A stretch of 64,000 bases of DNA, taken from positions 62,001 through 126,000 of IMG/VR virus record IMGVR_UViG_3300005976_000005; one strand, given 5' to 3'. The notes beneath the pieces were generated by a model. That model saw only the letters and a list, made by a program, of their open reading frames with translations, searched no databases and had not been told where the DNA came from. Shown here one piece after another: positions 12,248 to 44,763 of this stretch. Made by a program: the position numbers and the translations under genes. This DNA comes from a virus. Position 1 is the first letter of the stretch, and every line of letters starts with the position of its first letter.

Positions 12248-12349
12248 TCAAAAAAAGAACTTCATGTTAAACGTCTTTGCTGGATAGACATTAACATTAG
12301 TTCTTTTCTTTTTCTTTTCTATAAAGTAGTACTCTACAAAATTCATCAT
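12248..12349 (-). pseudogene. truncated head-leader protein
   Basis: ATG at 12349 overlapping the upstream stop (TAATG), with a second ATG at 12346. It reads MNFVEYYFIEKKKKRTNVNV... and stops after 34 codons, close to the IS605-type end. The first ten residues match the leader shared by the neighbouring genes (M-x-F-x-x-Y-Y-F-x-E). It is probably the N-terminal stump of a gene cut by the insertion. Confidence 0.5.
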
Positions 12350-12591
12350 TATGCCTTTGGAAGAGGGCACCACTCAGGAATTCTCCATTCAAAGTCCTTC
12401 ACACAAATACGGTTTGGACTGTCTGGATGCTTACATCCTCTTGTTCCAAAATCCATAATGTCAACATAATATGGACAATCACGAACGCTATGTATTACCT
12501 TGACGTCACCGTCAACATTTACAAGTCTTTTGTCAGCTTCTTTTCTCACATGCCCAAGTTTCTCTTGAAGATATTTTTTATACTCTTTCAT
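12349..12591 (-). CDS. Cys-rich protein with head-type leader
   Basis: 80 residues. The leader MKEYKKYLQE|KLG matches the T4 capsid-targeting type with an LxE cleavage site. The body has CPYY...RGCKHPDSPNRICVKDF...EWCPLP, four Cys plus His that could bind zinc. Function unknown. It overlaps the upstream gene by 14 bases. Confidence 0.65.
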   Translation of the reverse strand: MKEYKKYLQEKLGHVRKEADKRLVNVDGDVKVIHSVRDCPYYVDIMDFGTRGCKHPDSPNRICVKDFEWRIPEWCPLPKA

Positions 12592-13759
12592 TATGATTCG
12601 CCCCCCATTCGTCTATAGATAGAACAGCAACTAATCTACCATCAAAGTCTTTACGAATTTCGTAAATTTCACCATTATCCATTTCTACTGTATCTATAAC
12701 TTCATCAGAAACATTAGACAAATCTTTTTCTACAGGTATTTCTCCATGATCTAATGTATTAATTGAGTCATGATCTTCAGCAAGTCTTCTTGCCTTGAAC
12801 TCAGAAAATGATTCTTCTTTCTTTACAGGAAGATTAAGTCTCTTCTTTATCTTATTCTTGTCTTCTTTTGATATGCCTTTTATACCATCTACCCAGCCGA
12901 CAGCAGTCTTGGTAGAAGAACCCTTCATCTTATCCTTGAACTTCTTTACATACATATCAACCTTATCTTCAGTTGACTCTGAGAGATTGAGTCCTTTCTT
13001 TTTTGCGTACTCCTTTGCCTTCTCCTTAGAGTCAAATTCCATGTCTACCATCTTAGAACCATCTTTTGTATTCAATACATAAACTGCGGTTTCACCCTTA
13101 CCTTTCTTGGCAATCTTTACTGAGTCGCCCTTCTTGCCCATATAACCTTCTGTCTTCAGATCATATGATCCTTCACCCTTATCAAGCTTATCATCTTTCT
13201 TGTATGTCATGTACTTCTTATTAGGCTTGATATCCTTTGGTTCTTCGTATGGTGTCTCAAATTCATCGGAGACCAATGCTTCTCTTTCTTCTGTGTCAAC
13301 AGCTTCCTGAGGAACCATCTTTGTCCAAGTTATCTTACCAACAGGATTACCAGGAATGGTTTCACCTGTTGCCTCAAACTTCTGGTCAGCAGTATCGTCA
13401 ATAAGGTTGTAACCCTTGACCTTCTTTTTGACTGCTTCTATGATTGACTTGATGGACTCAATCTCAGAACCATATGTGTAGAAGTTTAATGGTTGCTTCT
13501 CTTTTACCCATTGGTCAACTGCTTCAGCAAATGCCTTGTAAATCTTCGGATCGTTGTCACCAACACCAATCCTGTGGGATTTGATGTTTTCGAACTCAAG
13601 CATCCAACTAGTGTTGTCATCACAACCACCAGCTATTGATGTAGCAAGAAAAGCATAAGTCACTCCATTAACATCAAATCTTGTCTCATATTTTCCCATT
13701 AAACCATCATAGATTTGCTGAGCTTCAAGCTTTTCACTAAGTTGATTTAAAAATCCCAT
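12578..13759 (-). CDS. large lysine-rich protein with head-type leader
   Basis: 393 residues, leader MGFLNQLSE|KLE. A folded N-terminal domain (about 1-150) has VNGVTYAFLATSIAGG and SWMLEFENIKSHR. It is followed by a long Lys/Asp/Glu-rich region (residues 170-330) containing KTEGYMGKKGDSVKIAKKG and GWVDGIKGISKEDKNK. No family recognised. Similar N-domains occur in hypothetical structural proteins of large phages, but that is recollection, not a search. Position and leader suggest an internal virion protein. Confidence 0.6.
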   Translation of the reverse strand: MGFLNQLSEKLEAQQIYDGLMGKYETRFDVNGVTYAFLATSIAGGCDDNTSWMLEFENIKSHRIGVGDNDPKIYKAFAEAVDQWVKEKQPLNFYTYGSEIESIKSIIEAVKKKVKGYNLIDDTADQKFEATGETIPGNPVGKITWTKMVPQEAVDTEEREALVSDEFETPYEEPKDIKPNKKYMTYKKDDKLDKGEGSYDLKTEGYMGKKGDSVKIAKKGKGETAVYVLNTKDGSKMVDMEFDSKEKAKEYAKKKGLNLSESTEDKVDMYVKKFKDKMKGSSTKTAVGWVDGIKGISKEDKNKIKKRLNLPVKKEESFSEFKARRLAEDHDSINTLDHGEIPVEKDLSNVSDEVIDTVEMDNGEIYEIRKDFDGRLVAVLSIDEWGANHNERV

Positions 13760-13770: not shown

Positions 13771-14082
13771 TTATCTTCTTAGTGCGTCGGCACTAGTGTC
13801 TCTTACGTTTCTATCTGCAAACTCTACAACAGCACCATAAAAATTGTCAAGAGCAGCTTTGATAGGTTCATAATCATCGTCACCATGAGCATTTATGAAA
13901 TCCACAAACGCTCCTTCTATATCTTGCAACATCTTAGCTGTGCTTCCACCAAGACCACCATAGTTATCTGAAATCTTTTGAATAGCGGCCATGTAATCTC
14001 TACCTTCTATATTCTCGTTGACGTATGAAGAAACATCATCTTCGCCAAGAAGATTATCTAAATTGTATTTTAGATTTTTCAT
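13771..14082 (-). CDS. small acidic helical protein
   Basis: 103 residues, start MKNLKYNLDNLLGE|DDV, a looser version of the shared leader. The remainder is helical with a Gly-rich turn (DNYGGLGGSTAKML). No family recognised. First of a cassette of four small helical proteins (13771-14991) that may be paralogous in design. Confidence 0.55.
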   Translation of the reverse strand: MKNLKYNLDNLLGEDDVSSYVNENIEGRDYMAAIQKISDNYGGLGGSTAKMLQDIEGAFVDFINAHGDDDYEPIKAALDNFYGAVVEFADRNVRDTSADALRR

Positions 14083-14088: not shown

Positions 14089-14331
14089 TTACTCCACTAT
14101 AGACTGAAGTGTTCTAACAACTTCTCTTGGGTCAACTCTCATTTCACCAAGAATGTGAATCATGAATTTAGCAAAATCGTTAGAATTCAATTCACTAATC
14201 TGACTCTTAAAGCTATCTATATCGTTATCTACGAAAGTATTGTAAATACCAGCAAACCTTTCCGATAAATGTTCCTGAGATGTGTATTCAGTAACTTCAT
14301 CTTCGCCTAAAAATCTTTCATAATTGCTCAT
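14089..14331 (-). CDS. small acidic helical protein with head-type leader
   Basis: 80 residues, leader MSNYERFLGE|DEV. The remainder is acidic helices (FKSQISELNSNDFAKFMIHI). No family recognised. It is spaced 6 bases from the next gene in the cassette. Confidence 0.55.
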   Translation of the reverse strand: MSNYERFLGEDEVTEYTSQEHLSERFAGIYNTFVDNDIDSFKSQISELNSNDFAKFMIHILGEMRVDPREVVRTLQSIVE

Positions 14332-14350: not shown

Positions 14351-14650
14351 TTAAATTTTCCCGTCACCAATGTCCTTATAAACTTCGTCTGAAAGTTCAT
14401 GCATCTTAGTCAATGCTTTCCTCAATGACATTTCAGCATCGAATGCTGCTTCAGCATTTTTACCAGGAGTGAGTCCGTCGATATAATCAGCGGCAGCCTG
14501 GACAGCTTCTATATGCTTGACAATATCATCTACACCAGCATCGATGTCCTTTTCGTCACCATCATCATTTACTTTTGCGGCAATCTTCTCAGCAGATGCC
14601 TTTTCTTCATCGTCAACCATCTTGTCAAGTTCGTACAAAATCTTTCCCAT
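14351..14650 (-). CDS. small acidic helical protein
   Basis: 99 residues, start MGKILYELDKMVDD, a weak match to the leader. Acidic, Ala-rich helices (HIEAVQAAADYIDGL). No family recognised. Member of the same four-gene cassette. Confidence 0.55.
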   Translation of the reverse strand: MGKILYELDKMVDDEEKASAEKIAAKVNDDGDEKDIDAGVDDIVKHIEAVQAAADYIDGLTPGKNAEAAFDAEMSLRKALTKMHELSDEVYKDIGDGKI

Positions 14651-14661: not shown

Positions 14662-14991
14662 TTATCTTAAATCTATAAGTCTGTCTTCCAATGCTTTTAC
14701 AACCACATTCTTTATTTCCTGAAAGTTGTAATTCCTTTCTCTATTCCAATCCTCAAGAGTTTTACTGACAATCGCAACGATACTTTCAACATCTCTTCTG
14801 TCCATTTCCAAGTTATTCTTTTCTATGAACTTGTCAACGGCATCATAATCCATTTCTTCTTCAGCATCACCAGGAACTCTCTTGAGAGTTGGATACTTAC
14901 GGATACCCGCAACATTTCCAACATTAGCATTGTCTGATGAATATGATGGGTCTGCCATCATCTCTTCCAAAAATTTAGTAAATCTACTCAT
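14662..14991 (-). CDS. small helical protein with head-type leader
   Basis: 109 residues, leader MSRFTKFLEE|MMA. It then has a low-complexity linker and two helical segments (ESIVAIVSKTLEDW, EIKNVVVKALEDRL). No family recognised. It is the first gene of its cassette, and a TATAAATA box lies 68 bases upstream. Confidence 0.6.
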   Translation of the reverse strand: MSRFTKFLEEMMADPSYSSDNANVGNVAGIRKYPTLKRVPGDAEEEMDYDAVDKFIEKNNLEMDRRDVESIVAIVSKTLEDWNRERNYNFQEIKNVVVKALEDRLIDLR

Positions 14992-15161: not shown

Positions 15162-15493
15162 TCAAACTTTTACATTTTGAATAAATTGCTTTACTTTATT
15201 CAAGTCTTTTTCCAAATCTATATTATTGTTCAATACAAAATCCACAGCAGATTGTATCACATCTCCTAGCTTTGGTCCTGGTTTAATGTCACTTCTTAAA
15301 GACATTACCATTTTACCGTTAACAATTTTCCTAATACTTTCAGTGACACTCCACGGGGCAAGCCCCGTGGCTTCTGCTTAGTTTTCTAAGCATTCTTTTT
15401 CTTGCTTCAACGACAGTTCTATTGAACCATCTCCACATATTTCTCATCATCTTGATAAAAACTTTCTTTTAAATAATATTCATCGAATATCAT
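15162..15493 (-). pseudogene. head-leader gene split by an IS605 relic
   Basis: The ATG at 15493 overlaps the stop of the upstream ADP-ribosyltransferase-like gene by four bases (ATGA), so this was a real gene. It reads MIFDEYYLKE|SFYQDDEKY and then runs into the 95-base TnpB relic at 15343-15437 and stops. Beyond the relic a second frame reads LRSDIKPGPKLGDVIQSAVD and FVLNNNIDLEKDLNKVKQF to a stop at 15162. KPGPKLG followed by helices recalls the C-terminal region of tRNA nucleotidyltransferase-like proteins, a weak match. Further relic coding (GKDFDKNENETIRKCIEFLV) lies at 15070-15140. The rest of 15067-15161 shows nothing. Confidence 0.65.
15343..15437 (-). mobile_element. IS200/IS605 TnpB C-terminal relic, copy 1
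   Basis: 95 bases identical to 46199-46293. On the minus strand it reads GDGSIELSLKQEKECLEN and a stop, the C-terminal end of TnpB. It is followed by a perfect 9-bp hairpin (CCACGGGGC / GCCCCGTGG, loop TT on this strand, 15351-15370), typical of IS605 right ends. It disrupts the leader-bearing gene at 15162-15493. Confidence 0.8.
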
Positions 15494-16563
15494 TTGTATA
15501 CTCCATTACTAAATGATAAGTCTCTTGTCGCATAGAAATAGTTTCCATCAAAAGCTAATCCGTCTGCTTTCACAACAGCAATGGTTGTCACAGGATTACT
15601 TCCAGTCATTTGTGCGTATCTATATGCTGTTTCTCTATCAGGAGCAAAGTATGTGTTTGTTTTGAATTTTTCCGATCTAAGTATCTTATTTAGATTTGAC
15701 TTTGATGTTCCGTGGTGAAGTGTTAGATAAAGTTCACCGTCTATGTAATTCTTGGGAACATTAAACTTTTCTACACCCTTCAAAACCGAATCCATAAATG
15801 CGTCGTTGGATTCGTGGAACTTTGCCGTAAGAGAAGGTTCTCTCAGTTGCCCGGCAAAGTACTGGTCTATCTTTCTTATTATGTTTGTTGGATTGATTGG
15901 TTGGTCAAACTCTTCATAATATCTTCCACCCTTACCATTTAGCTCCAACAACACCTGGTCAACACTGTTTATATATCTTCTCAAAGCATTTCTTTGTTGT
16001 TGTGTTACCGGTGATTCAATATCAATGAGACCAACATTAGCATCAATTCTAATAGGACCAAGTTTCTGAAAAGCAATCATTCCATCAGAGCCACCTTGAG
16101 CAGCCGGGTGATCTATATTCTCTAATGCTCTTCCAATTTCTCTATGATCCATTTCTCTACCACGAGCGTATGTATTACCGAACTTTCTGCCTGATAAATC
16201 GAGAAGCTTACCGTCTCTCATTATATATCCTGCGAACTTTAGATTGTTTGTCAAACCGAATCTTCTTCTCACCTCATTGAGAACTTGTTCATCGGTGGAT
16301 ACTTCCTTCTTCTCAACAGCTCTTTTTATAGCTTCATAATGATGCGGTAATGCTTCCTTATTGATTGGTTTATTTCTGTCAAAAAAGTTCCTTTTCAAAA
16401 TTGCCTTGACATCATCAGGACCTCTCCAATCAAATCCCTTACGCTTCATGTAAGTGTTTATCTTACTGAAAACTGTTTTAGGAACGTCATCCAAACTGTT
16501 GATTATTATTTTGTCATCAAGGACCTCAAAGTCCTCTCTTATATAGAAAGCTTCGAATCTCAT
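15490..16563 (-). CDS. putative packaged ADP-ribosyltransferase-fold protein
   Basis: 357 residues. The leader MRFEAFYIRE|DFE has an IxE site. The C-terminal 80 residues read LYLTLHHGTSKSNLNKILRS, then TYFAPDRETAYRYAQ and further strands. The HHGTS turn, helix and downstream Ala-rich helix follow the ART/PARP/KptA pattern, in which the His binds NAD. T4 packages and injects the ADP-ribosyltransferase Alt, which carries a comparable leader (MELITELFDE), so an Alt-like role is likely. The middle part (KLLDLSGRKFGNTYARGREMDH) is unassigned. The stop overlaps the next start as ATGA. Confidence 0.6.
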   Translation of the reverse strand: MRFEAFYIREDFEVLDDKIIINSLDDVPKTVFSKINTYMKRKGFDWRGPDDVKAILKRNFFDRNKPINKEALPHHYEAIKRAVEKKEVSTDEQVLNEVRRRFGLTNNLKFAGYIMRDGKLLDLSGRKFGNTYARGREMDHREIGRALENIDHPAAQGGSDGMIAFQKLGPIRIDANVGLIDIESPVTQQQRNALRRYINSVDQVLLELNGKGGRYYEEFDQPINPTNIIRKIDQYFAGQLREPSLTAKFHESNDAFMDSVLKGVEKFNVPKNYIDGELYLTLHHGTSKSNLNKILRSEKFKTNTYFAPDRETAYRYAQMTGSNPVTTIAVVKADGLAFDGNYFYATRDLSFSNGVYK

Positions 16564-16572: not shown

Positions 16573-16905
16573 TTACATAGCATGTGTTGGTACTTCTTCA
16601 AATTCTACTTCTTCTGGATTTTCACCCATCTCTCTGAGTTTTCTAATAGCGAACTTCTTTGGCATTTCAGTAGGTGTATATCCCCAACGAACTTCTCTTT
16701 CTTCCATAGGTTTATGACTGGTATCAAAAACGAACTCAAGATATCTACCTTGTGGATTAGGAACATCTCTTGAAACCTTTACAACAATATCACCACTATC
16801 CTGGATTTCCTTTCTCCATTTGAAAGTTCTACCTATTTCCATTTCATCGTCTTTCCAATCTCGATCTCTTCCAAGAGCCTCTTTAAGATATTCATTAAAA
16901 GCCAT
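16573..16905 (-). CDS. hypothetical protein with head-type leader
   Basis: 110 residues, leader MAFNEYLKE|ALG. A beta-rich middle (DIVVKVSRDVPNPQGRYLEF) and the end EVEFEEVPTHAM are unassigned. The ATG overlaps the stop of the cupin gene upstream, so the two are coupled. Confidence 0.6.
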   Translation of the reverse strand: MAFNEYLKEALGRDRDWKDDEMEIGRTFKWRKEIQDSGDIVVKVSRDVPNPQGRYLEFVFDTSHKPMEEREVRWGYTPTEMPKKFAIRKLREMGENPEEVEFEEVPTHAM

Positions 16906-17318
16906 TATTCTTCTCCTTCATCTTCCATTGCTTCTTCTTTAGTATCGTGAACAGTTCCTTCCGGATGTTGTGGTGGTGAGTATATTGCGTAGAGCTTTAT
17001 ACCTTCTTCTCCAGCAATAATGTTATGTTTCACACCACCTGGAACTATAAAAGCCGAACCGTCTTTTATGTCATACTTCTTACCGTCCATAACCAGTTTA
17101 CCAGAACCACCATCAATTCTGAAGAACTGATCTGGATCATGAATCTCTTCTCCAATATCTTCGTTGGGTTTTAGTGACATTAGTACTAATTGCATGTTGT
17201 CACCAGTAAATAATGACTTTCTGAATTTGTCATTATCAACAGTATCTTTCTCGATATCTGTAACAAATCCAACTTCTTGACTCTCTTCTGCTTCTCTTAC
17301 AAAATCTCTAAAACTCAT
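16905..17318 (-). CDS. cupin-domain protein with head-type leader
   Basis: 137 residues, leader MSFRDFVRE|AEE. The body is a single cupin barrel: MSLKPNEDIGEEIHDPDQFF (first cupin motif with H and E), GSGKLVMDGKKYDIKDG, then FIVPGGVKHNI (second motif, P-G-x-x-H). Cupins bind metals or small molecules and sometimes act as dioxygenases or epimerases; the ligand cannot be told here. A cupin carrying the same leader as its unrelated neighbours suggests that the leader is a sorting tag. The acidic tail (EEAMEDEGEE) is unusual. Confidence 0.75.
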   Translation of the reverse strand: MSFRDFVREAEESQEVGFVTDIEKDTVDNDKFRKSLFTGDNMQLVLMSLKPNEDIGEEIHDPDQFFRIDGGSGKLVMDGKKYDIKDGSAFIVPGGVKHNIIAGEEGIKLYAIYSPPQHPEGTVHDTKEEAMEDEGEE

Positions 17319-17944
17319 TTTGATTCTCTCACTTTACCTGGTATGAAAACCTCAAGATGATCTCTTGACATTGTTATTGTTTCGCTTCTTCCTCTCTTGT
17401 ATGGATCGAAGACTTTAGATTTGTAAGCTTCCTTGTTCCAACTAGAGGGAGTTCTCAAATACTTTCTATCCATAGCTATAACTTTTTTCAGAAGTTTGGG
17501 TAAATCCTTTGTGTGGACTTTTACCCAAGAACCCTTATATTCTTTACCAACTCCCATCTTCTTTGCTGGTTCAACAAAGTGAGTCCAGATATCTCCGTGG
17601 TGCTGAAACTTCTTTATTGGAGGAAATCTCATTGTTTCCTCTCCACTTTTGTCAACACCCTTGACCATTATATCCTTATTCCAAGCAGCAAGAAACGGCT
17701 CCACATAAGGCCAGATGAAAGCATAAATCCCCTTCTTCTCTGGTGGTGTATGGAACCCTGCTACTGGATTTTCAGAATCCACGAATTTTCTTTCCTTCTT
17801 TTTGTCCCTCTTAGGGTTCATGTGTCCCCATCGAGTAAACATAATCTTTGGATCAGATTTCTTATCTCTTGCCTTTACTTTGACAACAGAATCATCTTCA
17901 TCGCCTATATAGTAATGTGCCTCAAATTTATTTTCCGTCTTCAT
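17315..17944 (-). CDS. hypothetical protein
   Basis: 209 residues from the ATG at 17944 (AGAAGGAAATTCGG upstream; a longer frame from 18001 has no ribosome site). Basic beta-rich N-half (FEAHYYIGDEDDSVVKVKAR) and an aromatic segment (AFIWPYVEPFLAAW). No family recognised. It lacks the shared leader. The start overlaps the upstream gene's end, and the stop overlaps the cupin start by four bases. Confidence 0.6.
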   Translation of the reverse strand: MKTENKFEAHYYIGDEDDSVVKVKARDKKSDPKIMFTRWGHMNPKRDKKKERKFVDSENPVAGFHTPPEKKGIYAFIWPYVEPFLAAWNKDIMVKGVDKSGEETMRFPPIKKFQHHGDIWTHFVEPAKKMGVGKEYKGSWVKVHTKDLPKLLKKVIAMDRKYLRTPSSWNKEAYKSKVFDPYKRGRSETITMSRDHLEVFIPGKVRESK

Positions 17945-18517
17945 CCGAATTTCCTTCTGGGTCTGAAAGCTGGAAACTAATTTGATCTTTGTACTTAGCA
18001 AAGTCTACAAGATAAACGTCATTTTCAGAAAACTTTATTAGCTCAAATTTCTTTTCATCTTCTATATCTTTTGGAAACTTCTCCCATTTCTTATCTTCAT
18101 AATTCCAAAATCTCTTTATTGCGTCGAGCGGAACTTGGTGAGCCGCTGCGACTTTATGTCCTGCCTTTTCAATTTCGATTGCTTTAGCAGAATCATCTGT
18201 TGCTACAACAAGTTTACCTTCATCAAATTCGTCAAAGGATTTTGGTCTGTCAGCAGAGTAATAGAAAGTTAAAACTCTCTTCTCTTCTGTTTGTGGCTTA
18301 GGGACATCGGTCTTGACATGTGGGTCCTTTTGCTTCCTTTTAATCTTTACTTCAAGAGGAGCATACTTCCACTGCTCATCTGAAGGAAGACTCTTTACCT
18401 TGACCTTATTTCTTTGACCAGTAGAAGTTCTATGCCATATTTTTTTTTTTGCCGCCAATCATCATTCTGACTGCCGGTATCATATTCCGTTATCAAATAA
18501 AAAAAAGAAAAATTCAT
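17928..18517 (-). CDS. head-leader protein with a one-base slip at an A11 tract
   Basis: An ATG at 18517 with AAGGAGG upstream reads MNFSFFYLITE|YDTG... and then DDWRQKKK, where an 11-A tract (about 18430-18441) is one A short for the frame to continue. The following frame, IWHRTSTGQRNKVKVKSLPS to the stop at 17928, is a clear basic protein of 170 residues with no good start of its own (only a TTG). One extra A gives 196 codons with the shared leader. So it is a slippage-dependent gene, a recent mutation or an assembly error. The body (FYYSADRPKSFDEFDEGKLV) is unassigned. Confidence 0.6.
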
Positions 18518-19638: not shown

Positions 19639-20898
19639 TTATTCTACGAAGAAAGGTTTAAAATCCATCCAAAGATTTAGTTTACCTTCTTCCTTAATTG
19701 GTATCTTGAGTCTTAGAAACTCAACATCATTGTTTCCATAGAATACAAGCGAGAAAGAATTTGTTTTCTCTGAAATTTTTTCCATTCTCATATAGAACTT
19801 GTCATTGAAATTATCTACCAGCTTTTTGAACCCTTTACTTGTTTTTGTTGAAATAACCCTTGTATTGTTAGATTGAGTTACAGCTAAATAAATTTCTTCA
19901 CTACCAAGACCTATAGAATTAACAAAGCTTTCGTTTATTCTATCACCATTATCTTTATATACTTCGTTAAAAATATCTATAACGAAGTCTCTAATTATCT
20001 GGTATCTGGATTTACCACCTTCTTCCATTGGCTGGTTCATAAATTCGGTTGCTAATGTGCTATAATCAGGAACTTTTTTCTTTTTAAGACTTCTTTTCAG
20101 TTTACTAAACTCCGAAGCTAACTTAGATATTTCTGGAATTCTTCTAATAACATCTTTTGCTTCTGTAGACAATTCATCATCCTCTATCTTATCCAACAAA
20201 TTTTTCACAAACTTAGCTCCAGTACCTTCAACATTAGGAAACATAACTTTCTTTATGAAGCTAATAAATGTAGAATTTACGAGGTTGATACTAAAACCAC
20301 TGTATGCTTTCAACGAAGCAAAAATCTCCTGAACAACCTTCTGCTCTGACATCTTCGTAACAATCAAGTCAGCAGTTGTCTCAAACTTCCTAGACTCACC
20401 AGCAAGCTCAATATCAAAAAGACAAAGAGCACTATCTTCCGATGATGAAATTTCTGTAAAGATTTTCTCAGCCAATGCCTCACCTTGTTGCTCTGATGTT
20501 CTTATCTTTCCACTTAGATTTTTCTGTTCTTTCTCCCCCCACTTAACATTCTCAATTTTTTCTGTTCTATACCTATTCATTTCATTGTTAAGTTCTTCAA
20601 GTAGATTTTTACTCTTGATTTTAAACCCACTATCCAACAAGTTCTTACATAGATTATACGCAGTTACTCTTTCCACATAATAACCTATTCTCGACTTGAG
20701 GTCCGACTTTCTGTCTTCACCATTTGATTCTTTCATGTTATTGGATACTCCTAAACTAATTCTTTTGGTTTGACCAAAATTCAACATAGAAAATAGCTTC
20801 TTTATACTATTAACAATTTTTCTAAATGAACTCTTGATCCATTGAGTTATGTTAGGTATAGTGATGTTCTCATGAAAGTAAAAATCATCGAACCTCAT
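19639..20898 (-). CDS. unknown protein with head-type leader
   Basis: 419 residues from the ATG at 20898, which has GGAG eight bases upstream (the ATG at 20904 has only two). Leader MRFDDFYFHE|NITI. The body is mostly helical with LKSRIGYYVERVTAYNLCKN and CLFDIELAGESRKFETTADL. The last phrase has spaced D/E residues that recall a PD-(D/E)xK nuclease core, a weak guess. The gene is translationally coupled to the GP88-like gene upstream. Confidence 0.6.
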   Translation of the reverse strand: MRFDDFYFHENITIPNITQWIKSSFRKIVNSIKKLFSMLNFGQTKRISLGVSNNMKESNGEDRKSDLKSRIGYYVERVTAYNLCKNLLDSGFKIKSKNLLEELNNEMNRYRTEKIENVKWGEKEQKNLSGKIRTSEQQGEALAEKIFTEISSSEDSALCLFDIELAGESRKFETTADLIVTKMSEQKVVQEIFASLKAYSGFSINLVNSTFISFIKKVMFPNVEGTGAKFVKNLLDKIEDDELSTEAKDVIRRIPEISKLASEFSKLKRSLKKKKVPDYSTLATEFMNQPMEEGGKSRYQIIRDFVIDIFNEVYKDNGDRINESFVNSIGLGSEEIYLAVTQSNNTRVISTKTSKGFKKLVDNFNDKFYMRMEKISEKTNSFSLVFYGNNDVEFLRLKIPIKEEGKLNLWMDFKPFFVE

Positions 20899-22617: not shown

Positions 22618-23148
22618 TTAAAATCCCAATTGCTTTAACTGTTTAATTGTATCATCTGCGTTTTGATGGTGTATACCAATACCATCCCCAAGATTTATCC
22701 AGTCATTGATTTTCTTATCATAATCATCTATGAGTATACTTTCTGTATCTGCGTGCTCATATTTATCCTTAGAAAAGATATAGTGCACATCTTCTCCAAG
22801 TTCTCTCTCAATCCAGATTTTTTTACCTTCTTTACAGAACTTGCTTCTTGTGGGAGTTGTTAATATCGTAGGATTATATTTTTTGATGTAGTTCCAAAGT
22901 TTCTTACCGTCAGGTGTCCAGGGCATCTCACTCCAGAATTCAAGCTTACCGTTTTCTGCTATGACTTTCCAAAGCTCTTCTCTTCCATACTTATCTTCGA
23001 ACTTATGCCCTTCCAATCCCTTGGTTACTTCACTTCCAAGATTTTCAAATGCTTTTTCCCACCAACAGATTACACCATCCATATCACAAAAGATTTTCAA
23101 TTGACTTTCCTCATTCTCATACAAATAAAGCATTTCAAGAATTCCCAT
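22618..23148 (-). CDS. HAD-family 5'-nucleotidase-like protein with head-type leader
   Basis: 176 residues from the ATG at 23148 (AAGGAGCGAATTG upstream). The leader MGILEMLYLYE|NEESQ is followed directly by KIFCDMDGVICWW, the D-x-D-G catalytic loop of HAD phosphatases, in the form typical of 5'(3')-deoxyribonucleotidases. TTPTRSKFCKEGK supplies motif II/III residues and ESILIDDYDKKI the final acidic pair. It probably dephosphorylates nucleotides. The leader and the enzyme core abut with almost no linker. Confidence 0.75.
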   Translation of the reverse strand: MGILEMLYLYENEESQLKIFCDMDGVICWWEKAFENLGSEVTKGLEGHKFEDKYGREELWKVIAENGKLEFWSEMPWTPDGKKLWNYIKKYNPTILTTPTRSKFCKEGKKIWIERELGEDVHYIFSKDKYEHADTESILIDDYDKKINDWINLGDGIGIHHQNADDTIKQLKQLGF

Positions 23149-23255: not shown

Positions 23256-23399
23256 CTACCACCATCCATTGAAATTTAGTCCATACTTATTGGCGAGAGA
23301 TTGACCTCTTCTCATTAGTTTTTTATCCTCTTTGGATAAATTAGTATCCTTTAACTTGATCGTTTTCTCTATCATATAAAATTCTCTAAATTGTAACAT
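23256..23399 (-). CDS. small basic protein with head-type leader
   Basis: 47 residues from the ATG at 23399 (GGGAGAAAAA upstream). Leader-like start MLQFREFYMIE|KTI, then a basic helix (KEDKKLMRRGQSLANKYGLN) and the end FNGWW. A longer frame to 23477 runs through the tmRNA and is not real. The gene begins 17 bases after the tmRNA 3' end. Function unknown. Confidence 0.55.
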   Translation of the reverse strand: MLQFREFYMIEKTIKLKDTNLSKEDKKLMRRGQSLANKYGLNFNGWW

Positions 23400-23786: not shown

Positions 23787-24173
23787 TTAGTCTTCGGATG
23801 ATGCCTTGAAAGTTGGTCTTCCCAAAGGTTCTCCACCGATAGCACTTGGTTCGTATTCGTTCTGTCTTATTTGCTCAGCTCTTACGTACTTCCAATCCTT
23901 TCCTTTGAGACCAATCTGGTCTTCAACCTTGGAAAGTAATCCCTCTACACCCTCTGATGGAATGCCTTCAAACTTACCAATCTTGGTAATTGTACAAGCA
24001 TCTGAGTAATACTTTGACCATTCTACGACACCCTTCTCTGCTCTACAAAGATTAAGGAATTTCTTTGGTTCGCCAGCATTATGTCTTTCTACATTGATAA
24101 TTGCTACTTCCTGAGAAAGTCTCTCCAATTGTTGCTTGGATAGCATTTCGCTAAGCACTTCTACAAAAGCCAT
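23787..24173 (-). CDS. hypothetical protein with head-type leader
   Basis: 128 residues, leader MAFVEVLSE|MLSKQ. The middle (VVEWSKYYSDACTITKIGKF) and C-terminal tail (EYEPSAIGGEPLGRPTFKAS) are unassigned. Transcription starts at the repeated promoter at 24207-24235. Its stop lies 7 bases before the tmRNA, so protein and tmRNA share a transcript. Confidence 0.6.
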   Translation of the reverse strand: MAFVEVLSEMLSKQQLERLSQEVAIINVERHNAGEPKKFLNLCRAEKGVVEWSKYYSDACTITKIGKFEGIPSEGVEGLLSKVEDQIGLKGKDWKYVRAEQIRQNEYEPSAIGGEPLGRPTFKASSED

Positions 24174-25026: not shown

Positions 25027-25027
25027 T

Positions 25028-32958: not shown

Positions 32959-32973
32959 AAAAATATCCTTATA

Positions 32974-33054: not shown

Positions 33055-33055
33055 C

Positions 33056-34617: not shown

Positions 34618-35407
34618 AGCCAATCTCCTTGACCCAGTTTTTAACTATTTCTTTCTTGTCCATCTCCCAGTAACCATCGGTGGAACTGTTACCGTGGTAT
34701 TCTGTATTTGTCATTTTACATTCACCCTTTATGTATCCCCATGTCTCTAACTTTGATGAATGGTAAACATCTGTTACAGAATCGTATATCTTCTGTTTAT
34801 TCTCTTCAAAACCCATAAAAACAACTTTGTCACCATCAACCATATGCTGGACTTTGGTTTGCCAATACCACGGGTCTGCAATAACTCCATATATAAGAAC
34901 CTTATCACAACCATCATCAAGCGCCCTTTTAATGGAAATATGGACTCTTTTGTTTTTGTCAATGGAACCAACTATTCCAGCAATCTTACCACTTGGTTTT
35001 TTGTTTGGTTTCAGATCGTCAAGAACATTTGGAAGTATGAAGTGTGGATGATCTATGGAATGGAAATCTCTCTGGTGCTCACTGACATAATGAATCTTGT
35101 CAAAAATCTCGTACTTGATATCTTTCAATGGAAATATATCCTGTTCATGACATGACAAGAAGAACCCTTTTATCGGTGGTCTCTGTATGAAGTTATTTCT
35201 GAAGTGTACTATTAGAATGTCTTCTTTCTTTATTTTCAGCTTTTCACCTGGTTTACAACATATAGATTTACACTTGTCAAGATGAAATGGATGAGGACCC
35301 ATAAAGACAGTCTCATACCCAAATTCATTCAGCGCGTTTGTCAGATTTATGAATGCTGTTGTAGAACCACCAGGATTTGACCAACCAGATAATATACGAA
35401 TCATCAA
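34607..35407 (-). CDS. GT4-like glycosyltransferase
   Basis: 266 residues. SGWSNPGGSTTAFINLTNAL is the glycine-rich N-terminal loop of GT-B enzymes; KIAGIVGSIDKNKRVHISIK and DKVLIYGVIADPWYWQTKV form the donor half, with YHSSKLETWGYIKGE in place of the usual E-x-x-GxxxxE. It overlaps the GT61 gene by four bases. Confidence 0.75.
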   Translation of the reverse strand: MMIRILSGWSNPGGSTTAFINLTNALNEFGYETVFMGPHPFHLDKCKSICCKPGEKLKIKKEDILIVHFRNNFIQRPPIKGFFLSCHEQDIFPLKDIKYEIFDKIHYVSEHQRDFHSIDHPHFILPNVLDDLKPNKKPSGKIAGIVGSIDKNKRVHISIKRALDDGCDKVLIYGVIADPWYWQTKVQHMVDGDKVVFMGFEENKQKIYDSVTDVYHSSKLETWGYIKGECKMTNTEYHGNSSTDGYWEMDKKEIVKNWVKEIGYEN

Positions 35408-37220: not shown

Positions 37221-37778
37221 TCAATATTTTTTATAATGTACGTAAAAATCTACAATGTCATTGTCCTTTATCAATGTCTTGAATGTATTTAGAGCATCTT
37301 CATGCGACTGGATTATTCTTTCCATTGGTATTGGATTTCTCTCGCCGGTCTCTACTCTCTTCTGTGCTTGTTTAGATGCTATCTCTGGTTTGGTATCGAT
37401 CAGTACAAGTACTGTTGTGAAGTTATTTTCTTTGGCTCTTTGTATTCTTTTTCTTGCGGCATTCACATTTTGGTTAGTTCCCATATGTACAAATGATTTA
37501 TCACCTTCTAATGCTTTATTCAATGCCTTATTGAACTTGGCTCTTCCTGCTCCTAGGTTGGCTCTACTATATTTACCACCACCAACTTCAGAAACGTAAT
37601 CGTCAACATCTATAATAGGAAGTTCTACAATTTTCTTTGTCAAGAATGTTTTTCCTGCTCCAATTCCACCACCAACACTAACAAACAACTTATCGTCTTT
37701 GATGTTGTTGATTTGGTCAAGTTCTATCTGTGTTGACTCGTTAATACTGTAGTAATTGTAAAAACTAGTAATTGACAC
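37221..37778 (-). CDS. P-loop kinase (zeta-toxin-like) with head-type leader
   Basis: 185 residues from a GTG at 37778 with AGGAGAATCACCGG upstream; the ATG at 37805 lies inside the upstream gene and lacks a site. This start gives the leader-like MSITSFYNYYSINE|STQ. The Walker A VGGGIGAGKTFLTKK and Walker B-like LPIIDVDDYVSEV, then TTVLVLIDTKPEIASKQAQK with an R-rich lid, match zeta-toxin/PezT-type small kinases. Substrate unknown. It overlaps the upstream stop. Confidence 0.7.
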   Translation of the reverse strand: MSITSFYNYYSINESTQIELDQINNIKDDKLFVSVGGGIGAGKTFLTKKIVELPIIDVDDYVSEVGGGKYSRANLGAGRAKFNKALNKALEGDKSFVHMGTNQNVNAARKRIQRAKENNFTTVLVLIDTKPEIASKQAQKRVETGERNPIPMERIIQSHEDALNTFKTLIKDNDIVDFYVHYKKY

Positions 37779-38178
37779 CCGGTGATTCTCCTGCTGTTGG
37801 TTCATCGCTCATTAAGGGATTACCACCCATTGGAGGTGGTTGTTGTGGTTTACGTTTTGGTTGAATCTTTATCTTCTCAACTTTATTATATACGTCGTGA
37901 AGAAACTTACTCTTAGCTTTGGTTATTATTTCGTGTATTCTTTTCTTCACTTTCTTTACGTAACTATTATCACCAACCATATGCTTGCGAATCTCATTAC
38001 CTACAGCAACATCAAAATCACCATAATTTGGAAAACACTTCTCCAAATAATTACACATACCAGCTATGAAAGCAGAATCTATTCCAATAGAAGGAGACTC
38101 ATCCTCAAGGATAATTCTTACTTCATTTGCAAATTGCTTTGCTTCACTTTCTCTAAAATAGTATTCTGTAAATTTCAT
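37765..38178 (-). CDS. hypothetical protein with head-type leader
   Basis: 137 residues from the ATG at 38178 (a GTG three codons earlier is also possible). Leader MKFTEYYFRE|SEAK. A helical body follows (FIAGMCNYLEKCFPNYGDFD) and a Pro-rich basic tail (KPQQPPPMGGNPLMSDEPTA). No family recognised. Confidence 0.6.
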   Translation of the reverse strand: MKFTEYYFRESEAKQFANEVRIILEDESPSIGIDSAFIAGMCNYLEKCFPNYGDFDVAVGNEIRKHMVGDNSYVKKVKKRIHEIITKAKSKFLHDVYNKVEKIKIQPKRKPQQPPPMGGNPLMSDEPTAGESPGVNY

Positions 38179-38192: not shown

Positions 38193-38387
38193 TTAAGACA
38201 TTATTCTTTCTATTTTATCACTAATATCTTTAACAATATTGTTAGCCATTCTACCAATAGCTTCGTCTGAAAATCTCTGATCTACTCCACTACTCATCAT
38301 ATAGTTAATAATTGAATTAGTCAACTCATCAACATCAGTTTCTACATTTCCACCAATATTTTCTTTTAGATATTTATTGAAACTCAT
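38193..38387 (-). CDS. small helical protein with head-type leader
   Basis: 64 residues, leader MSFNKYLKE|NIG, very close to the T4 MKTYQEFIAE pattern. The rest is acidic and helical (ELTNSIINYMMSSGVD). No family recognised. Its ATG overlaps the stop of the ligase-like gene. Confidence 0.65.
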   Translation of the reverse strand: MSFNKYLKENIGGNVETDVDELTNSIINYMMSSGVDQRFSDEAIGRMANNIVKDISDKIERIMS

Positions 38388-39365
38388 TTCTTGTACTCCT
38401 GATTGTAAGCTTTCTTTGCTTCCTTAAAACGGTCACTAACTACTTTGAACATAACATTGTTTGATAACTCAAATACAAGACCTTCGTACTCATCACCAAA
38501 CTTACCTGACTTTATTAGACTACCAAGCTTCTTTGAGAAGTCCTTCTGCATCTGGAGCAATTCTTGTTTGATTCTTCTCTTTTGTTCCATAGCGGGTTTC
38601 TTTCTGCTTGGATTCATAATGATTTCATCAATCTTCTGTCCATATTCCTTCTCAATGTTATTTATAAATTTCTCAACTCTCTGAATTTCAGGAGTCAAAT
38701 CAACTTCATTGAAATCCGAAATATCACCATAGTCAAATCTTATTCCATTGGTGCTCAAATTCTTCAAGTCTTCTTTTATCTTCTGGACCTTTTCCTGCTC
38801 TAAAGGTCTTCCCTTTCCATCCGTCGCATTTATAACAACGAATGTTGCCCACTCACCAAGCTTTTCCTTTTTGTACCAAGTAGCAACAAACTTTACAAGC
38901 GAGCTATCTTCTTCCGAACCTTTTCCAATTGGAAGATAAAAAGCCTCTGTTTGGATTTTTATTCCACTTGGTGTGTTTATTGACTTGAGATATTTCTGAA
39001 GCTTATCATAATTCTTCAATCTTTTCAGAATATCCTCATAACCTTCTGTAACTGGGTCTGTCTGTCCCCTCTTACCAATAGTAAACTGTCTGAATTTTCC
39101 CTCGTCAAATATAGGTCCCGAATGCGATGACTCAACAAAGAACTTACCGTCTTTATCAACTCCAAAAAAAAAAACGAAAACCGTCCATTTTTTCACTCAA
39201 ATTAGTATTCACTCTATTTAATTTTCCTTCATTTGAAGATTTAATAAATCTAATAATATCTAAAAAATCTTTAGGTTTCATACTATACTTATCATGATAA
39301 ATATGTTGGATTCCAGTTCTCGGTGAAGATGAAACTTCACTAAAATAATGTTTGATAAAATTCAT
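38384..39365 (-). CDS. ligase-like nucleotidyltransferase, frame broken at a T11 tract
   Basis: From the ATG at 39365 the frame reads MNFIKHYFSE|VSSS..., then SMKPKDFLDIIRFIK and LSEKMDGFRFFF, where an 11-T tract shifts it to a stop. Removing one T continues as GVDKDGKFFVESSHSGPIF to the stop at 38384, 326 residues in all. KMDG (Lys59) is a covalent-nucleotidyltransferase motif I; IQTEAFYLP, YEGLVFEL and MFKVV fit motifs III to V, as in ATP-dependent DNA/RNA ligases. It may be a packaged ligase. Slippage, mutation or an assembly error explains the tract. It overlaps the inserted endonuclease by 26 bases. Confidence 0.7.
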
Positions 39366-40607: not shown

Positions 40608-40883
40608 CTATGCTGGACGCTTACCAAGGTCTGGTTTTGTTTTGCTTGCCAATGTAGAAAGTTCATTTCTAACTCTACCAAAAGCCTTATCTGCCGCCTG
40701 GTTGAAAGATTGATAAGCATAATCTATAGCGAGTACATCATCAACTTTGGTAGAATCCATATACTCCCAAAAAGCACTGTACGCTTTGTCTACAGCTCTC
40801 TCTACTGCTTCTTGAAAAGAATATGGTCTAACCTCTATACCTTTGTTAAATTCTTCTGATAGATACTTCTGATATTCTTTCAT
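40608..40883 (-). CDS. small helical protein with head-type leader
   Basis: 91 residues, leader MKEYQKYLSE|EFN. Helical body with repeated AxxxAF pattern (SFQEAVERAVDKAYSAFWEY, SFNQAADKAFGRVR). No family recognised. Four-base overlap with the fused adenylyltransferase gene upstream. Confidence 0.6.
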   Translation of the reverse strand: MKEYQKYLSEEFNKGIEVRPYSFQEAVERAVDKAYSAFWEYMDSTKVDDVLAIDYAYQSFNQAADKAFGRVRNELSTLASKTKPDLGKRPA

Positions 40884-42742
40884 TTTTTAATCCCCTTCTT
40901 TCTTTTTAAGTCTTGATAGAATGGTAACACGAAATCTCTCAATTGCTCATCACTCATTTTGAATTGAGGAAAGACTTTCGCAAACTCGTCATAAGCAGCT
41001 TTCTTTGCCTCAAAGTCATTCATTTGTATTCCGTCTTTCCAAGCATCTGGTCCTTGTTCTATTTCCTGTCCCTTTCTCCATATAATGTCCATAAAGTTAT
41101 TATATACCATCTTTATAGTGTCGTTGTCAAGATATTTTTTCATTAACTTCAAAATACCTACAAACGAATGGAAGTCTTTCTTTTCTACTGGTGTAGGCTT
41201 CTTCTCAAAAACAAAAGCAAAAATATCTTCAATATCTCTTTCGTAGTTTGAAACTTTCGTTGGAATTTCCTTATATATTGGCTTTCCTTCAGGTGTTCTT
41301 TGAATCTCACCCTTATCATCAAGGACTGGCTCAAAAGCAACTCTCATTCCCTTATCAACAGAGAACTTTCTCATTGCTGGGTTGTCATATTTAGTGCTTG
41401 TTGAAATCTTACCAGTTGGTGTTTGAATAGCAATATCTCCAAGTCTTTGCTTTGCTGATACAAGCGATCTCATAAGAAGCTTTGAGAAAGCTCCCTTTAC
41501 CTTATTCTTTATGTCCTGCCAAGAACTGTAGTGAGCAAATGTTGAAAATTCGTTTGGTACACCGTCCTCAAAAAATGTTGGCTCAAAGTCAATCTGAATA
41601 TTCTTCACTAAGTCGGGAACAACAGATGAAACGAATATTGTGTTTTCCTGTGTTTGTGATTTACCACCTTTACCTAAGAAAGTCATCTTACCAAACTTCT
41701 GTCCTTCATTATCCTTGAGGAATTCCTTAAGAAGAGGTCTTAGCTCTTCTGGATATTGTAAATCCATATCTCCAACTGCCTTTTTATGCTTACTGAATTC
41801 ATCATAAGGCTTGGAAAAGAACAATCTTGTAGAACCAGAGAATAGTTTTCCACTCTTAACATTCTCTTCAAATTTTGGGAACAATGGTTTGTTGTATTTC
41901 TTCTCGAATTCTTTATTGAATGCTCTTAGTGCGTCGACTATTTCCTTCTGTAATTCTCTAAACTGTTTTGCGGAAATCTTATCCATCGGAATTTTTTCTG
42001 CTGGAACTTCTTTACCATCTTTAGTGATAACCTTTACATTACCACCTTCTTTCAAATAGTAAAATTTATCAAATCTCATTGTATTATGGCTCTCTATAAT
42101 ATTGTTCTTTTTTAGCATATCAATCATCATATCATATACTGACTCTTCATAACCAGTAAGTCTCAAAAACTCTTCCTTGTTTTTATCAAGGAGAGCCCTT
42201 CTAACTTTTGTACCAGAAGTATCTTCTTCTCCACGACTTTCAAGAAAGAAGTATTCACCCTTTCCGAAATCAGAATCAGATGGATCAGTAGTTCCTTCGT
42301 TCTTTGGATCATACTCAACGAAATATCTCTGGAAGTCCTTTATTCTGTCTGGACCTACTATGAATACTGGTCTATCAACACCAGCCTGAACTACTCTTGT
42401 AAACATTCTAATTGGAATTGAGGAGTCCACACGAATAAATCTTGCTCCGGTAGCCTCCTCAATTATCTTCTTTTTCTGTTCATCAGTAAAAATGTCGACC
42501 TTTGGGTCGACTTTCTTTCTGGTTGGAGAAACGATTACAACGTCATCAAAATGTTGCTTAGCAAAATCAACAAGCCTACCGTGCCCCTTTTTTCCAGTCC
42601 AGGGAGCAAATTTCCCAAAGATGACAGCGGTAGGCTTCTCATTCTTGTCAATTACATAACGATTTAGTTCAACCGTTTTAGATGGGTCGTTCCTATCTGG
42701 AACTTCAACTGTTATCATTCCTTCCAGAATTGTAGAAAACAT
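40880..42742 (-). CDS. fusion: NMNAT-like adenylyltransferase plus nucleotidyltransferase, with an internal leader
   Basis: 620 residues from the ATG at 42742 (GGAG seven bases upstream), leader MFSTILE|GMI. Residues about 35-215 hold a cytidylyltransferase-like fold: TAVIFGKFAPWTGKKGHGRL (GxFxPxxxGH type) and TSGTKVRRALLDKN (SxTxxR), most like NMN adenylyltransferases. Then a second leader, MRFDKFYYLKE|GGN, lies inside the protein (near residue 223) and begins another domain with GSTRLFF...VGDMDLQYPEEL, a G-S...D-x-D nucleotidyltransferase site. This looks like two cargo genes fused, with a protease site left between them. Confidence 0.7.
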   Translation of the reverse strand: MFSTILEGMITVEVPDRNDPSKTVELNRYVIDKNEKPTAVIFGKFAPWTGKKGHGRLVDFAKQHFDDVVIVSPTRKKVDPKVDIFTDEQKKKIIEEATGARFIRVDSSIPIRMFTRVVQAGVDRPVFIVGPDRIKDFQRYFVEYDPKNEGTTDPSDSDFGKGEYFFLESRGEEDTSGTKVRRALLDKNKEEFLRLTGYEESVYDMMIDMLKKNNIIESHNTMRFDKFYYLKEGGNVKVITKDGKEVPAEKIPMDKISAKQFRELQKEIVDALRAFNKEFEKKYNKPLFPKFEENVKSGKLFSGSTRLFFSKPYDEFSKHKKAVGDMDLQYPEELRPLLKEFLKDNEGQKFGKMTFLGKGGKSQTQENTIFVSSVVPDLVKNIQIDFEPTFFEDGVPNEFSTFAHYSSWQDIKNKVKGAFSKLLMRSLVSAKQRLGDIAIQTPTGKISTSTKYDNPAMRKFSVDKGMRVAFEPVLDDKGEIQRTPEGKPIYKEIPTKVSNYERDIEDIFAFVFEKKPTPVEKKDFHSFVGILKLMKKYLDNDTIKMVYNNFMDIIWRKGQEIEQGPDAWKDGIQMNDFEAKKAAYDEFAKVFPQFKMSDEQLRDFVLPFYQDLKRKKGIKK

Positions 42743-42753
42743 TCCCATTCTCC

Positions 42754-44763
42754 TTATCCTCTTGCTCCACCCTTCTTGTATTCAGATGGTATTTGAGGAG
42801 ATGGAACTTTCTCAATCTTCTCCTTTGGCTTTGAAGGAGACTTTGTGTAGTTTCCAGATGGTGCTGCCTTCTTGTCACTCTTTGGAACTTTACCAGCAGG
42901 TTCCATCTTATGCTTTGGCTTAGATGGAGACTTTGTGTAGTTTCCAGATGGTGCTGGTTTAGATGGAGACTTTGGTGCCGATGGAACCTTCTCAATCTTT
43001 TCCTTTGGTTTCGAAGGATTCGATGTGAAGCCGTCAGCACTATGGTCAGATGCGTTGTAAATTTCTTCCTCGTCCATCTCCATATATCTGTTTGCTAACT
43101 TAGCAAAACTCAATCCTTCTTCTGCCATTTCTTCCATTTCTTCTTCACTTCTATTCAGTGCGTTCTTCCACTGACTCTTGAATTTAGATGAGTAATCGTC
43201 TTCACTTCTACTCTTATTTCTCTTCAACGCATCCTTCCACTGACTCTTGAATTTAGATTGGTAGTCCATTTCTTCTTCACCATCTATAGCGACACTTATA
43301 GCAGCGTGGATCACATCTATTTCTTCGTCGGAAAGTCTTTCTCCAGAATGAAGCTTATCCATTACGTTGTCAAGAACCGCTGTGTCAGATTTTCCTTCTT
43401 TAGCGGCGGCGATAGCTCCGGCAATTATATCTCTTTCTGGTTCTGAAAGATTTTCACCGTCACGAACCTTTGCCATAACATCTTCCAAGCCACCGTCGTC
43501 TTCCATTTCTTCTTCAGCATATTCCATTTCTTCTTCAGCATATTCCATCTCTTCTTCAGAAGTTCCTGGTCCAATAACCTCAAGCTGTTCAATAGGTGCC
43601 TCATACTCCTCACCATCCTGGTCAGTAACATAAGCAATATCACCTTCAAATCCAGCAACCATACAAGGCATTCCCTTGTAAAGAACTTCCTGACCATTCT
43701 TCAATGGGCAACCCATTTCTTCTTCACTGTATTTCATACCACACTCTTCTTCAGCATCATATTCCATTTCTTCAACTTCATCAATAGTAAACTTAGACTT
43801 CTTCTTGTTGATATCCACACCAACAATCTCTTTATCTTTGGTAACTGAAACAACATTATACCAATCTTCGTTGACTTTTACAAGTTTACCAACAAGCTTA
43901 TTGAGGTCAAGGCTTTCTAAGTCATACATAGAAGAACCAGCATAACCTCTCTTTCTCATTGTCATTTCTTCTTCTGCTTCTTCATCATCACCACCAAGAT
44001 CAGCGATGTCTTCCCAGTTTATAGCATCAGCATCTTCAGGTTCTTCTCCTGCGTCTTCTGACTCTTCACCAGCATCTTCAGGTTCTTCTCCTGCGTCTTC
44101 TGGCTCTTCACCAGCATCCTCAGGTTCTTCTTCCTCTGCTTCTCTAATGCTCTTGGATTCTGGATACATCTCTTCTTCAGCTTCTCCACCTTCTTCTGGC
44201 TCTTCCATCTGAACTGTAAATCCTTTGAAAAGAGTCTCAAGAGAATCTGTAAATGCCTTTAATTCTTCTTCACTATCAAATTCGTGTTCTGACTTTTCAA
44301 GACCAGTTCCATCAGAAGGCTCTACCATTACCTTCATTCCTTCAACAGAAACCTTTACAATCTTTTCTTCCTCTGGTTCTTCTGTTTCCTCTTCAACAAC
44401 GTCCTTTCTCGGTCTTCCTCTTTTCTTACCAGTAGATTCCATACCAAGACCAGACGATCTGTTTTTATCAACGTCATTATTGATAGTGATTCTGATTTCA
44501 CCTTCATCAAGTGAGTTGACCTTCTCAACAACGTAATCCATATTGTTCTTAAGGAATTCAACGTCAATTGTTGAAGGAGCAATTCTTTCATCTACGAATT
44601 CATTCTGAATTCTGTGAAGTGCTGTCTTCTTGTCTGAGTAATCATCATCAAAAGCTTCTCTGACGATGGATACAACCTTATCCCATCTTTCCTTAATTAT
44701 CTTCTCAGAAGCGGAAACATCCTCATTGAAGTTTTCTTTAAGATACTTTGTAAATTCTAACAT
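42754..44763 (-). CDS. long acidic AT-hook protein with head-type leader
   Basis: 669 residues, leader MLEFTKYLKE|NFN. A helical N-part is followed by GKKRGRPRKD, a classical AT-hook. Then come Glu-rich low-complexity regions with tandem repeats (EEPEDAG five times, EEEMEYA three times), two copies of SKFKSQWK(D/N)AL, and a Pro/Lys/Ser-rich basic tail with repeats of SPSKPKEKIEKVPS. Several [LI]xE sites lie inside. It resembles a phage internal head or scaffold-type protein: acidic centre, DNA-binding hook, basic tail. No family named. Repeats make copy-number changes likely. Confidence 0.65.
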   Translation of the reverse strand: MLEFTKYLKENFNEDVSASEKIIKERWDKVVSIVREAFDDDYSDKKTALHRIQNEFVDERIAPSTIDVEFLKNNMDYVVEKVNSLDEGEIRITINNDVDKNRSSGLGMESTGKKRGRPRKDVVEEETEEPEEEKIVKVSVEGMKVMVEPSDGTGLEKSEHEFDSEEELKAFTDSLETLFKGFTVQMEEPEEGGEAEEEMYPESKSIREAEEEEPEDAGEEPEDAGEEPEDAGEESEDAGEEPEDADAINWEDIADLGGDDEEAEEEMTMRKRGYAGSSMYDLESLDLNKLVGKLVKVNEDWYNVVSVTKDKEIVGVDINKKKSKFTIDEVEEMEYDAEEECGMKYSEEEMGCPLKNGQEVLYKGMPCMVAGFEGDIAYVTDQDGEEYEAPIEQLEVIGPGTSEEEMEYAEEEMEYAEEEMEDDGGLEDVMAKVRDGENLSEPERDIIAGAIAAAKEGKSDTAVLDNVMDKLHSGERLSDEEIDVIHAAISVAIDGEEEMDYQSKFKSQWKDALKRNKSRSEDDYSSKFKSQWKNALNRSEEEMEEMAEEGLSFAKLANRYMEMDEEEIYNASDHSADGFTSNPSKPKEKIEKVPSAPKSPSKPAPSGNYTKSPSKPKHKMEPAGKVPKSDKKAAPSGNYTKSPSKPKEKIEKVPSPQIPSEYKKGGARG

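Follow-up and report, generated by a model that had tools for sequence, protein, structure and literature searches.

A candidate capsid-targeting leader of the T4 internal-protein kind on two gene clusters of a T4-type phage

Background

Phage T4 loads proteins into its head by means of a short N-terminal tag of ten residues, the capsid-targeting sequence (CTS). T4 has three internal proteins (IPs), and at least ten have been reported across the T-even phages (PMC12373910). Few natural cargoes of the tag are known; those with a function either block GmrSD-type nucleases, as reported for the T4 IPs (PMC12373910), or modify RNA polymerase. IPIII starts with MKTYQEFIAE, in which residues 4 and 7 direct packaging and residues 8 and 10 direct processing. 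With Asp at position 10, processing is blocked and packaging is kept (PMC9026906). A leader of this form was examined in a 64,000-nucleotide stretch of viral DNA (the window; bases 62001-126000 of the linear 149,281-bp record IMGVR_UViG_3300005976_000005), where it marks genes in two blocks, cluster A (12.2-24.2 kb) and cluster B (37.2-44.8 kb). Comparison with T4 suggests, with a probability of roughly five in six, that the leader targets its proteins to the prohead core and is cut by an S77 protease, the proteins being packaged with the DNA in an expanded form of the T4 internal-protein system.

By its gene content the phage is T4-type, since homologs of RegA, gp15, gp17, gp18, gp19/gp25-type and other T4 proteins are present in the record. 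Its tail sheath is less than 35% identical to that of any isolate among those listed. The close relatives are environmental contigs only: G001 (264 kb, sheath 70%), G002 (124 kb), G007 (254 kb) and fragments. A search of isolate genomes, as DNA and as protein, with a 669-residue leader protein and 24 kb of the window gave no matches.

The leader and its distribution

The spacing of the leader, [FY]xx[FYH][LIFY]xE, equals that of Y4, F7, I8 and E10 in IPIII. Window leaders such as MSRFTKFLEE and MKEYKKYLQE have an aromatic, a second aromatic, an aliphatic or aromatic residue and Glu at these places. One sub-type has an extra aromatic (MKFTEYYFRE), and in some leaders the Glu lies up to ~10 residues further on, like that of T4 IPI (MKTFKEFTSTTTPVSTITE). 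Strict L/I at the third residue before the predicted cut (P3) occurs in only part of the leaders, with L, I, F, M or V overall. The N-termini quoted in the first-pass annotation are where it had placed them, all on the minus strand and most with Shine–Dalgarno-like sites. Its count of more than 20 leader proteins compares with about 20 block genes of IPIII-like form and four more (12578, 13771, 14351, 23787) with a looser amphipathic variant. Not every block gene is tagged, as a Dam-type methylase (18755) and a homing-endonuclease-like open reading frame (ORF; 39340) are without the leader. The same contig has three further leader genes beyond the window (134275, 148260, 148492), of which 148260 and 148492 belong to the head operon. 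The loose match at 1-930 (MIYTELFARE) is an RlaP-like nucleotidyltransferase and was excluded from the leader count.

Genes were called on the whole record by one script, and the starts in the blocks were corrected by hand. A profile was trained on the opening residues of leaders from relatives only, with a 5-column version that ignores the Glu. This held-out anchor profile matched 17 of 31 block genes, against 7 of the 206 other genes of the 149-kb contig (p 1.6e-12). The 17 include a false match to RegA (44930), just inside the block limits. The internal-Met null gave matches at 9 of 688 positions. The placing of the pattern on two gene blocks is thereby upheld, and the proteome scan proposed beforehand as a check finds it rare in early genes. 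Among the 17 profile-matched block genes, 16 have [LIFVM]xE after the anchor. In the T4 control, 8 of 281 called genes were matched by the held-out profile, including IPI, IPII, IPIII and 61.1. As a separate observation, the T4 61.1 product (L126 18966-19130) has the CTS-like start MKTFKEFIKE, and its body resembles gp23 just past the gp23 cleavage site (TTSGAVVNKGP vs QTSGAVTQIGP).

The anchor was also written as a regular expression, M-x(1,4)-[FY]-x2-[FYH]-[LIFYV]. It was found in 17 of 35 block genes of this record against 5 of 227 elsewhere (Fisher p 4e-13), with corresponding counts of 22/33 against 11/426 in G001 and 27/35 against 2/124 in G002. Since the blocks had been chosen by eye for the pattern, these Fisher values are post hoc; independent of block choice are the held-out profile and a gene-order scan statistic. 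The latter reached 10, 12 and 17 per 20 neighbouring genes in this genome, G001 and G002, against permutation maxima of 8, 9 and 11. Across six genomes, [LIFYVM]xE lies within 15 residues of the anchor in 72 of 82 anchored proteins (33 +/- 4 in shuffles), and the Glu frequency after the anchor peaks at positions 2 and 3. A strict expression with E fixed two past the anchor found only 3/33 in G001 and missed many leaders of the relatives; it was therefore replaced by anchor plus LxE. When 70 leader proteins were aligned, the first Phe (F4) alone was nearly invariant and the mean column identity was 7%. The bodies are therefore unrelated, as had been claimed at the outset.

Protease, capsid site and genomic context

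A protease of the gp21 family (PF03420, S77) is encoded in relative contigs that span the head operon, and its GELDHP and GMSTRG motifs align with T4 gp21. Homologs of gp20, gp21, gp22 and gp23 are present in the relatives and in contigs L146-L148 from the same samples as the window. The major capsid cleavage site of the relatives, aligned with FLTE^A of T4 (^, cut), reads LGE^A, LAE^A, MTE^A or FTE^A, and in contigs from the samples of the window phage it is ISE^A. Leaders with FxE and MxE are matched by the FTE and MTE sites. Same-sample contigs with a 98-100% identical sheath hold one identical protease-capsid set and are probably the window phage itself. The link is probable rather than proven because the join passes through repeated homing-endonuclease sequence. 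The gene for the terminase large subunit (G000 138480-146781) is split by several intein/homing-endonuclease-like insertions, whose repeated copies also confuse assembly.

Both leader clusters are syntenic in G001, G002 and G007, adjoining RegA and beyond the glycan genes. Individual orthologs shift between the clusters and the head operon with the leader retained. The head operons of G001 and G007 each contain an ortholog of the cupin gene 16905, which in G001 adjoins the capsid gene and in G007 lies close to it. In G002 the head operon includes the ortholog of the HAD nucleotidase gene 22618, and both G002 and G006 have an ortholog of 37765 next to the portal gene. An ortholog in G007 exists for half of the cluster genes but for 90% of the structural ones, and the cluster genes therefore form an accessory set. 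T4-type late promoters (TATAAATA) precede the cluster heads.

Bodies behind the leader

In the window the leader-bearing bodies include a cupin, a HAD deoxyribonucleotidase, a Zeta/AAA_33 kinase and NMNAT-like, GP88 and ligase-like proteins. The relatives add a CCA-adding tRNA nucleotidyltransferase (three members), a polynucleotide kinase, an ADP-ribosyltransferase (ART) of the ART-PolyVal family (G001 259368, leader MRFDEYYLTE) and an AAA+ ATPase. Protein 258448 of G001, a kinase of the T4 PseT type, has ~10 residues (MRFEEHYDEQ) added at its N-terminus, which points to the leader as an add-on. Of the body names first given to the window proteins, cupin, HAD nucleotidase, Zeta/AAA_33 kinase and NMNAT-like hold. 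The ligase-like name comes from motifs: no family or fold match was obtained, PDB searches gave chance matches only and the AlphaFold model (pLDDT 45) was too poor for use. The description of 15490 as ADP-ribosyltransferase-like was not confirmed, its AlphaFold model (pLDDT 34) being equally too poor for use. In G002, positions 79341-87206 hold six leader proteins of ~385-465 residues with MNFREHYF-like starts; they are apparently paralogous, and the one scanned has no Pfam family.

The NMNAT-like and phrog_19290 nucleotidyltransferase-like parts of 40880-42742 are fused in the window and separate genes in G001. An internal leader stands at the fusion junction. In the sister contig L131 this junction reads MRFDNFYYLTE^GGNVKV, with the motif residues of the window and different spacer residues. 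The nucleotidyltransferase body starts with GGN right after LKE, LTE, LFE, ILE, LLE or ISE where a leader is present, and in the leaderless proteins of Va1 and L142-L144 GGN follows Met alone. Since the body starts with GGN after leader or Met across distant phages, the predicted cut is the body boundary in most lineages. The leader inside the fusion suggests that this protein is a capsid polyprotein which the prohead protease cuts. A homolog of the nucleotidyltransferase (AEF56792.1) is encoded by the cultured Campylobacter phage IBB_35, for which virion proteomics have been published (PMC3322345); in CP220, of the same family, the sequence is MKLSELMFILE^GGN. G002 58212 was considered as an ortholog (LLEGG) and withdrawn, the alignment being at 19% identity.

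Interpretation

The proposal of a sorting and cleavage tag is well supported by comparison, through the CTS positions, the S77 protease, the [LIFM]xE^A capsid site, the head-operon genes and the body boundary. On this reading the leader is a CTS of the T4 internal-protein kind, carried by a large set of accessory genes in one T4-type clade. The aromatic amphipathic N-terminus ([FY]xx[FYH][LIFY]) would bind new cargo to the prohead core. There the S77 (gp21-type) protease, activated within the prohead, would cut after [LIFM]xE, and the mature cargo (small phage proteins and enzymes of tRNA repair, NAD/ADP-ribose and nucleotide metabolism) would therefore be left loose in the head beside the DNA. 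By analogy with T4 IPI-III and Alt, the cargo would enter the host at the onset of infection, where it may block or repair early host defence and prepare metabolism. We infer this binding, cutting, packaging, injection and purpose from the sequence of the leader and its setting.

Several observations weigh against this scheme. Gene 17315 has no clean LxE, nor do the leaders MRFDEFYDEP and MRFDDFYEFA in relatives, and the nucleotidyltransferases of L137/L138/L141 have LLC^GG in place of LLE^GG. The more distant G008 and G009 hold few anchored genes (15 and 18), which are scattered and not significantly clustered. Per-gene late-promoter enrichment was not significant (p 0.59, 0.10, 0.91). The window contig itself ends at a homing-endonuclease repeat, ahead of its own protease and capsid genes. 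The prohead protease that the first-pass annotation expected outside the window was thus found in relatives and same-sample contigs, not within the phage's own contig.

It has to be considered that the leader targets the prohead and that most of its bearers are assembly or core factors (scaffold helpers), which are trimmed and stay or leave, rather than injected effectors. Many leader proteins are small, helical and acidic, some are encoded between portal, protease and terminase genes (G006 5163, 5736; G001 195541, 198184), and T4 IPIII also acts in head assembly. Such a role is nevertheless unlikely for the set: many of the bodies are enzymes useless in assembly (CCA-adding enzyme, polynucleotide kinase, ART, cupin, nucleotidase), and the absence of about half of the cluster genes from G007 is what would be seen for accessory arsenals.

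Amphipathic N-termini can also target proteins otherwise, and with some leaders free of LxE the motif could sort to a membrane, a replication compartment or a host organelle-like body, the LxE being incidental. The residue-by-residue match to the T4 CTS, the recovery of the T4 IPs by the same profile, the LxE enrichment, the head-operon placement and the body boundary at E in several lineages make this very improbable. Hardly credible is an artefact of composition or homology, whether from AT-rich 5' codons or from a recently duplicated family. The genome has 35% G+C and G002 has its six paralogues of one leader family, but early genes of the same genome lack the leader (7/206), the same leader residues are written with differing codons and the bodies are unrelated.

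With the T4-like targeting and cleavage leader thus preferred, its presence on 15-40 otherwise unrelated proteins per genome points to a virion that brings a large ready-made toolkit along with the DNA, in place of the three or four proteins known from T4. A narrower idea is put forward tentatively, as somewhat less than an even chance. The virion may be pre-loaded with a complete kit for tRNA/RNA repair and NAD/nucleotide metabolism (polynucleotide kinase, ligase, CCA-adding enzyme, nucleotidyltransferases, NMNAT, ART, nucleotidase) that enters before phage expression, the fusion being a head polyprotein that the prohead protease divides. Should the tag work as in T4, a sequence scan predicts a clade-wide injected proteome with the exact mature N-terminus of each member. 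Phages would then deliver repair and metabolic enzymes as protein, ahead of gene expression, and the set would supply many new candidates for anti-defence proteins.

Features of the two clusters

Table 1. Leader genes and flanking features of clusters A and B, in window coordinates (^, predicted cut; aa, amino acids).
Position	Strand	Feature	Basis or remark
12248..12346	-	leader ORF MNFVEYYFIE^KKKK, 32 aa	sequence
12349..12591	-	leader gene MKEYKKYLQE^K	held-out profile
12578..13759	-	variant leader MGFLNQLSEKLE^A, 393 aa	ortholog G001 263676 (MGFISQLSEKLE)
13771..14082	-	variant leader MKNLKYNLDNLLGE^D	sequence
14089..14331	-	leader gene MSNYERFLGE^D	G007 ortholog MKNNTYFNRFLGND
14351..14650	-	variant leader MGKILYELDKMVDDEE	orthologs MAILNELDKLV (G001), MSILNDLEKLV (G007)
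14662..14991	-	leader gene MSRFTKFLEE^M	preceded by TATAAATA at 75 bp
15490..16563	-	leader gene MRFEAFYIRE^D, 357 aa	
16573..16905	-	leader gene MAFNEYLKE^A	held-out profile
16905..17318	-	leader MSFRDFVRE^A, cupin	
17315..17944	-	anchor without clean LxE (MKTENKFEAHYYIGDE)	G007 ortholog MINQFEAYYYDDEDEE
17928..18517	-	leader gene MNFSFFYLITE^Y	frame broken at 11-nt homopolymer 18440-18450
19639..20898	-	leader gene MRFDDFYFHE^N, 419 aa	
20901..22433	-	leader MDRFIDHYFE^D, GP88-related body	
22618..23148	-	leader MGILEMLYLYE^N, HAD 5'-3' deoxyribonucleotidase	
23256..23399	-	leader ORF MLQFREFYMIE^K	
23787..24173	-	variant leader MAFVEVLSEML	heads cluster A; preceded by TATAAATA at 54 bp
37221..37778	-	leader MSITSFYNYYSINE^S, P-loop kinase (Zeta_toxin/AAA_33)	
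37765..38178	-	leader gene MKFTEYYFRE^S	
38193..38387	-	leader gene MSFNKYLKE^N	held-out profile
38384..39365	-	leader MNFIKHYFSE^V, ligase-like body (KxDGFR, EGLV)	
40608..40883	-	leader gene MKEYQKYLSE^E	held-out profile
40880..42742	-	fusion: short leader MFSTILE^G, NMNAT-like (PF01467), internal leader, phrog_19290 nucleotidyltransferase-like domain	
42041..42073	-	internal leader MRFDKFYYLKE^GGNVKV	fusion junction
42754..44763	-	leader MLEFTKYLKE^N, 669-aa acidic protein	AT-hook-like KRGRPRK (below Pfam cut-off)
44930..45334	-	RegA, T4-type translation repressor	flanks cluster B; no leader

Leader orthologs of 42754..44763 are found in G001, G002 and G003. The C-terminal part of 12578-13759 contains ESFSEFKARRLAE, which by eye resembles a second internal leader. 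Homopolymers of at least 10 occur only twice in the 149-kb record, both being 11-nt A/T runs and each breaking the frame of a leader gene. The first breaks the leader gene 18395/17928 (17928..18517), whose orthologs are intact in G001, G002 and G007, and a scan for other copies of this 18.4-kb site found none. The second (39164-39174) breaks the leader gene 39156/38384 (38384..39365), is unchanged in a contig from a second sample, and the gene is intact in L131. Slippage, phase variation or assembly error are possible causes.

A phage tmRNA lies in cluster A (window 23416-23780, minus strand; Rfam RF00023, 131.8 bits) and encodes the tag AEDYAYAQAA; an identical tag is found in the G001 tmRNA (253899-254258), just ahead of the G001 leader cluster. 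A second N-terminal signature, M[IWL][RK]W[KE], marks tandem arrays of ~9-15 small ORFs of roughly 45-100 residues outside the window (G000 32430-35014, plus strand; G001 44012-47987, minus strand; G007 143910-146600, plus strand).

Comparison with known systems

Many internal head proteins of phiKZ and SPN3US are also cut by a diverged gp21-like protease (PMC10052503, PMC9026906). They differ in their S/A-X-E motif, in propeptides that are mostly long (111-254 residues in SPN3US) and in having no shared short aromatic leader. The S/A-X-E motif was not found in the present leaders (P3 L/I/F/M/V) or capsid sites (L/M/F/I), and the core genes are T4-type. Polyvalent and MuF-fused effectors (PMC5512222, PMC9503650), among them ART and nucleotide/NAD enzymes delivered with phage DNA, resemble the cargo proposed here, and ART-PolyVal is common to both. 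In those systems many domains share one polypeptide or are fused to MuF/portal, whereas here they are separate tagged genes. No multi-effector polypeptide or MuF/portal fusion was found, and the only fusion in the window is that of NMNAT, leader and nucleotidyltransferase.

T4 Alt, a head-packaged ADP-ribosyltransferase (MELITELFDE), is similar in bearing a short cleaved N-terminus on a packaged enzyme and may be compared with the ART-PolyVal protein of G001. It is a single gene with a looser leader, and the window yielded no Alt ortholog. The closest likeness is to T4 IPI, IPII, IPIII and the 61.1-type ORFs (PMC9026906, PMC3012670, PMC12373910), which share the leader of 10-19 residues, the aromatics at 4 and 7, the LxE/IxE cut, the unrelated bodies, the gp21-type protease and the T4-type head operon. 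The difference lies in the roughly 15-40 genes per genome, their clustering, the many enzymes among them and a P3 widened to F/M/V. The mechanism is thus known from T4; what is new is the scale, the clustering, an enzyme cargo that includes RNA-repair enzymes, the widened P3 and the fused, internally tagged pair.

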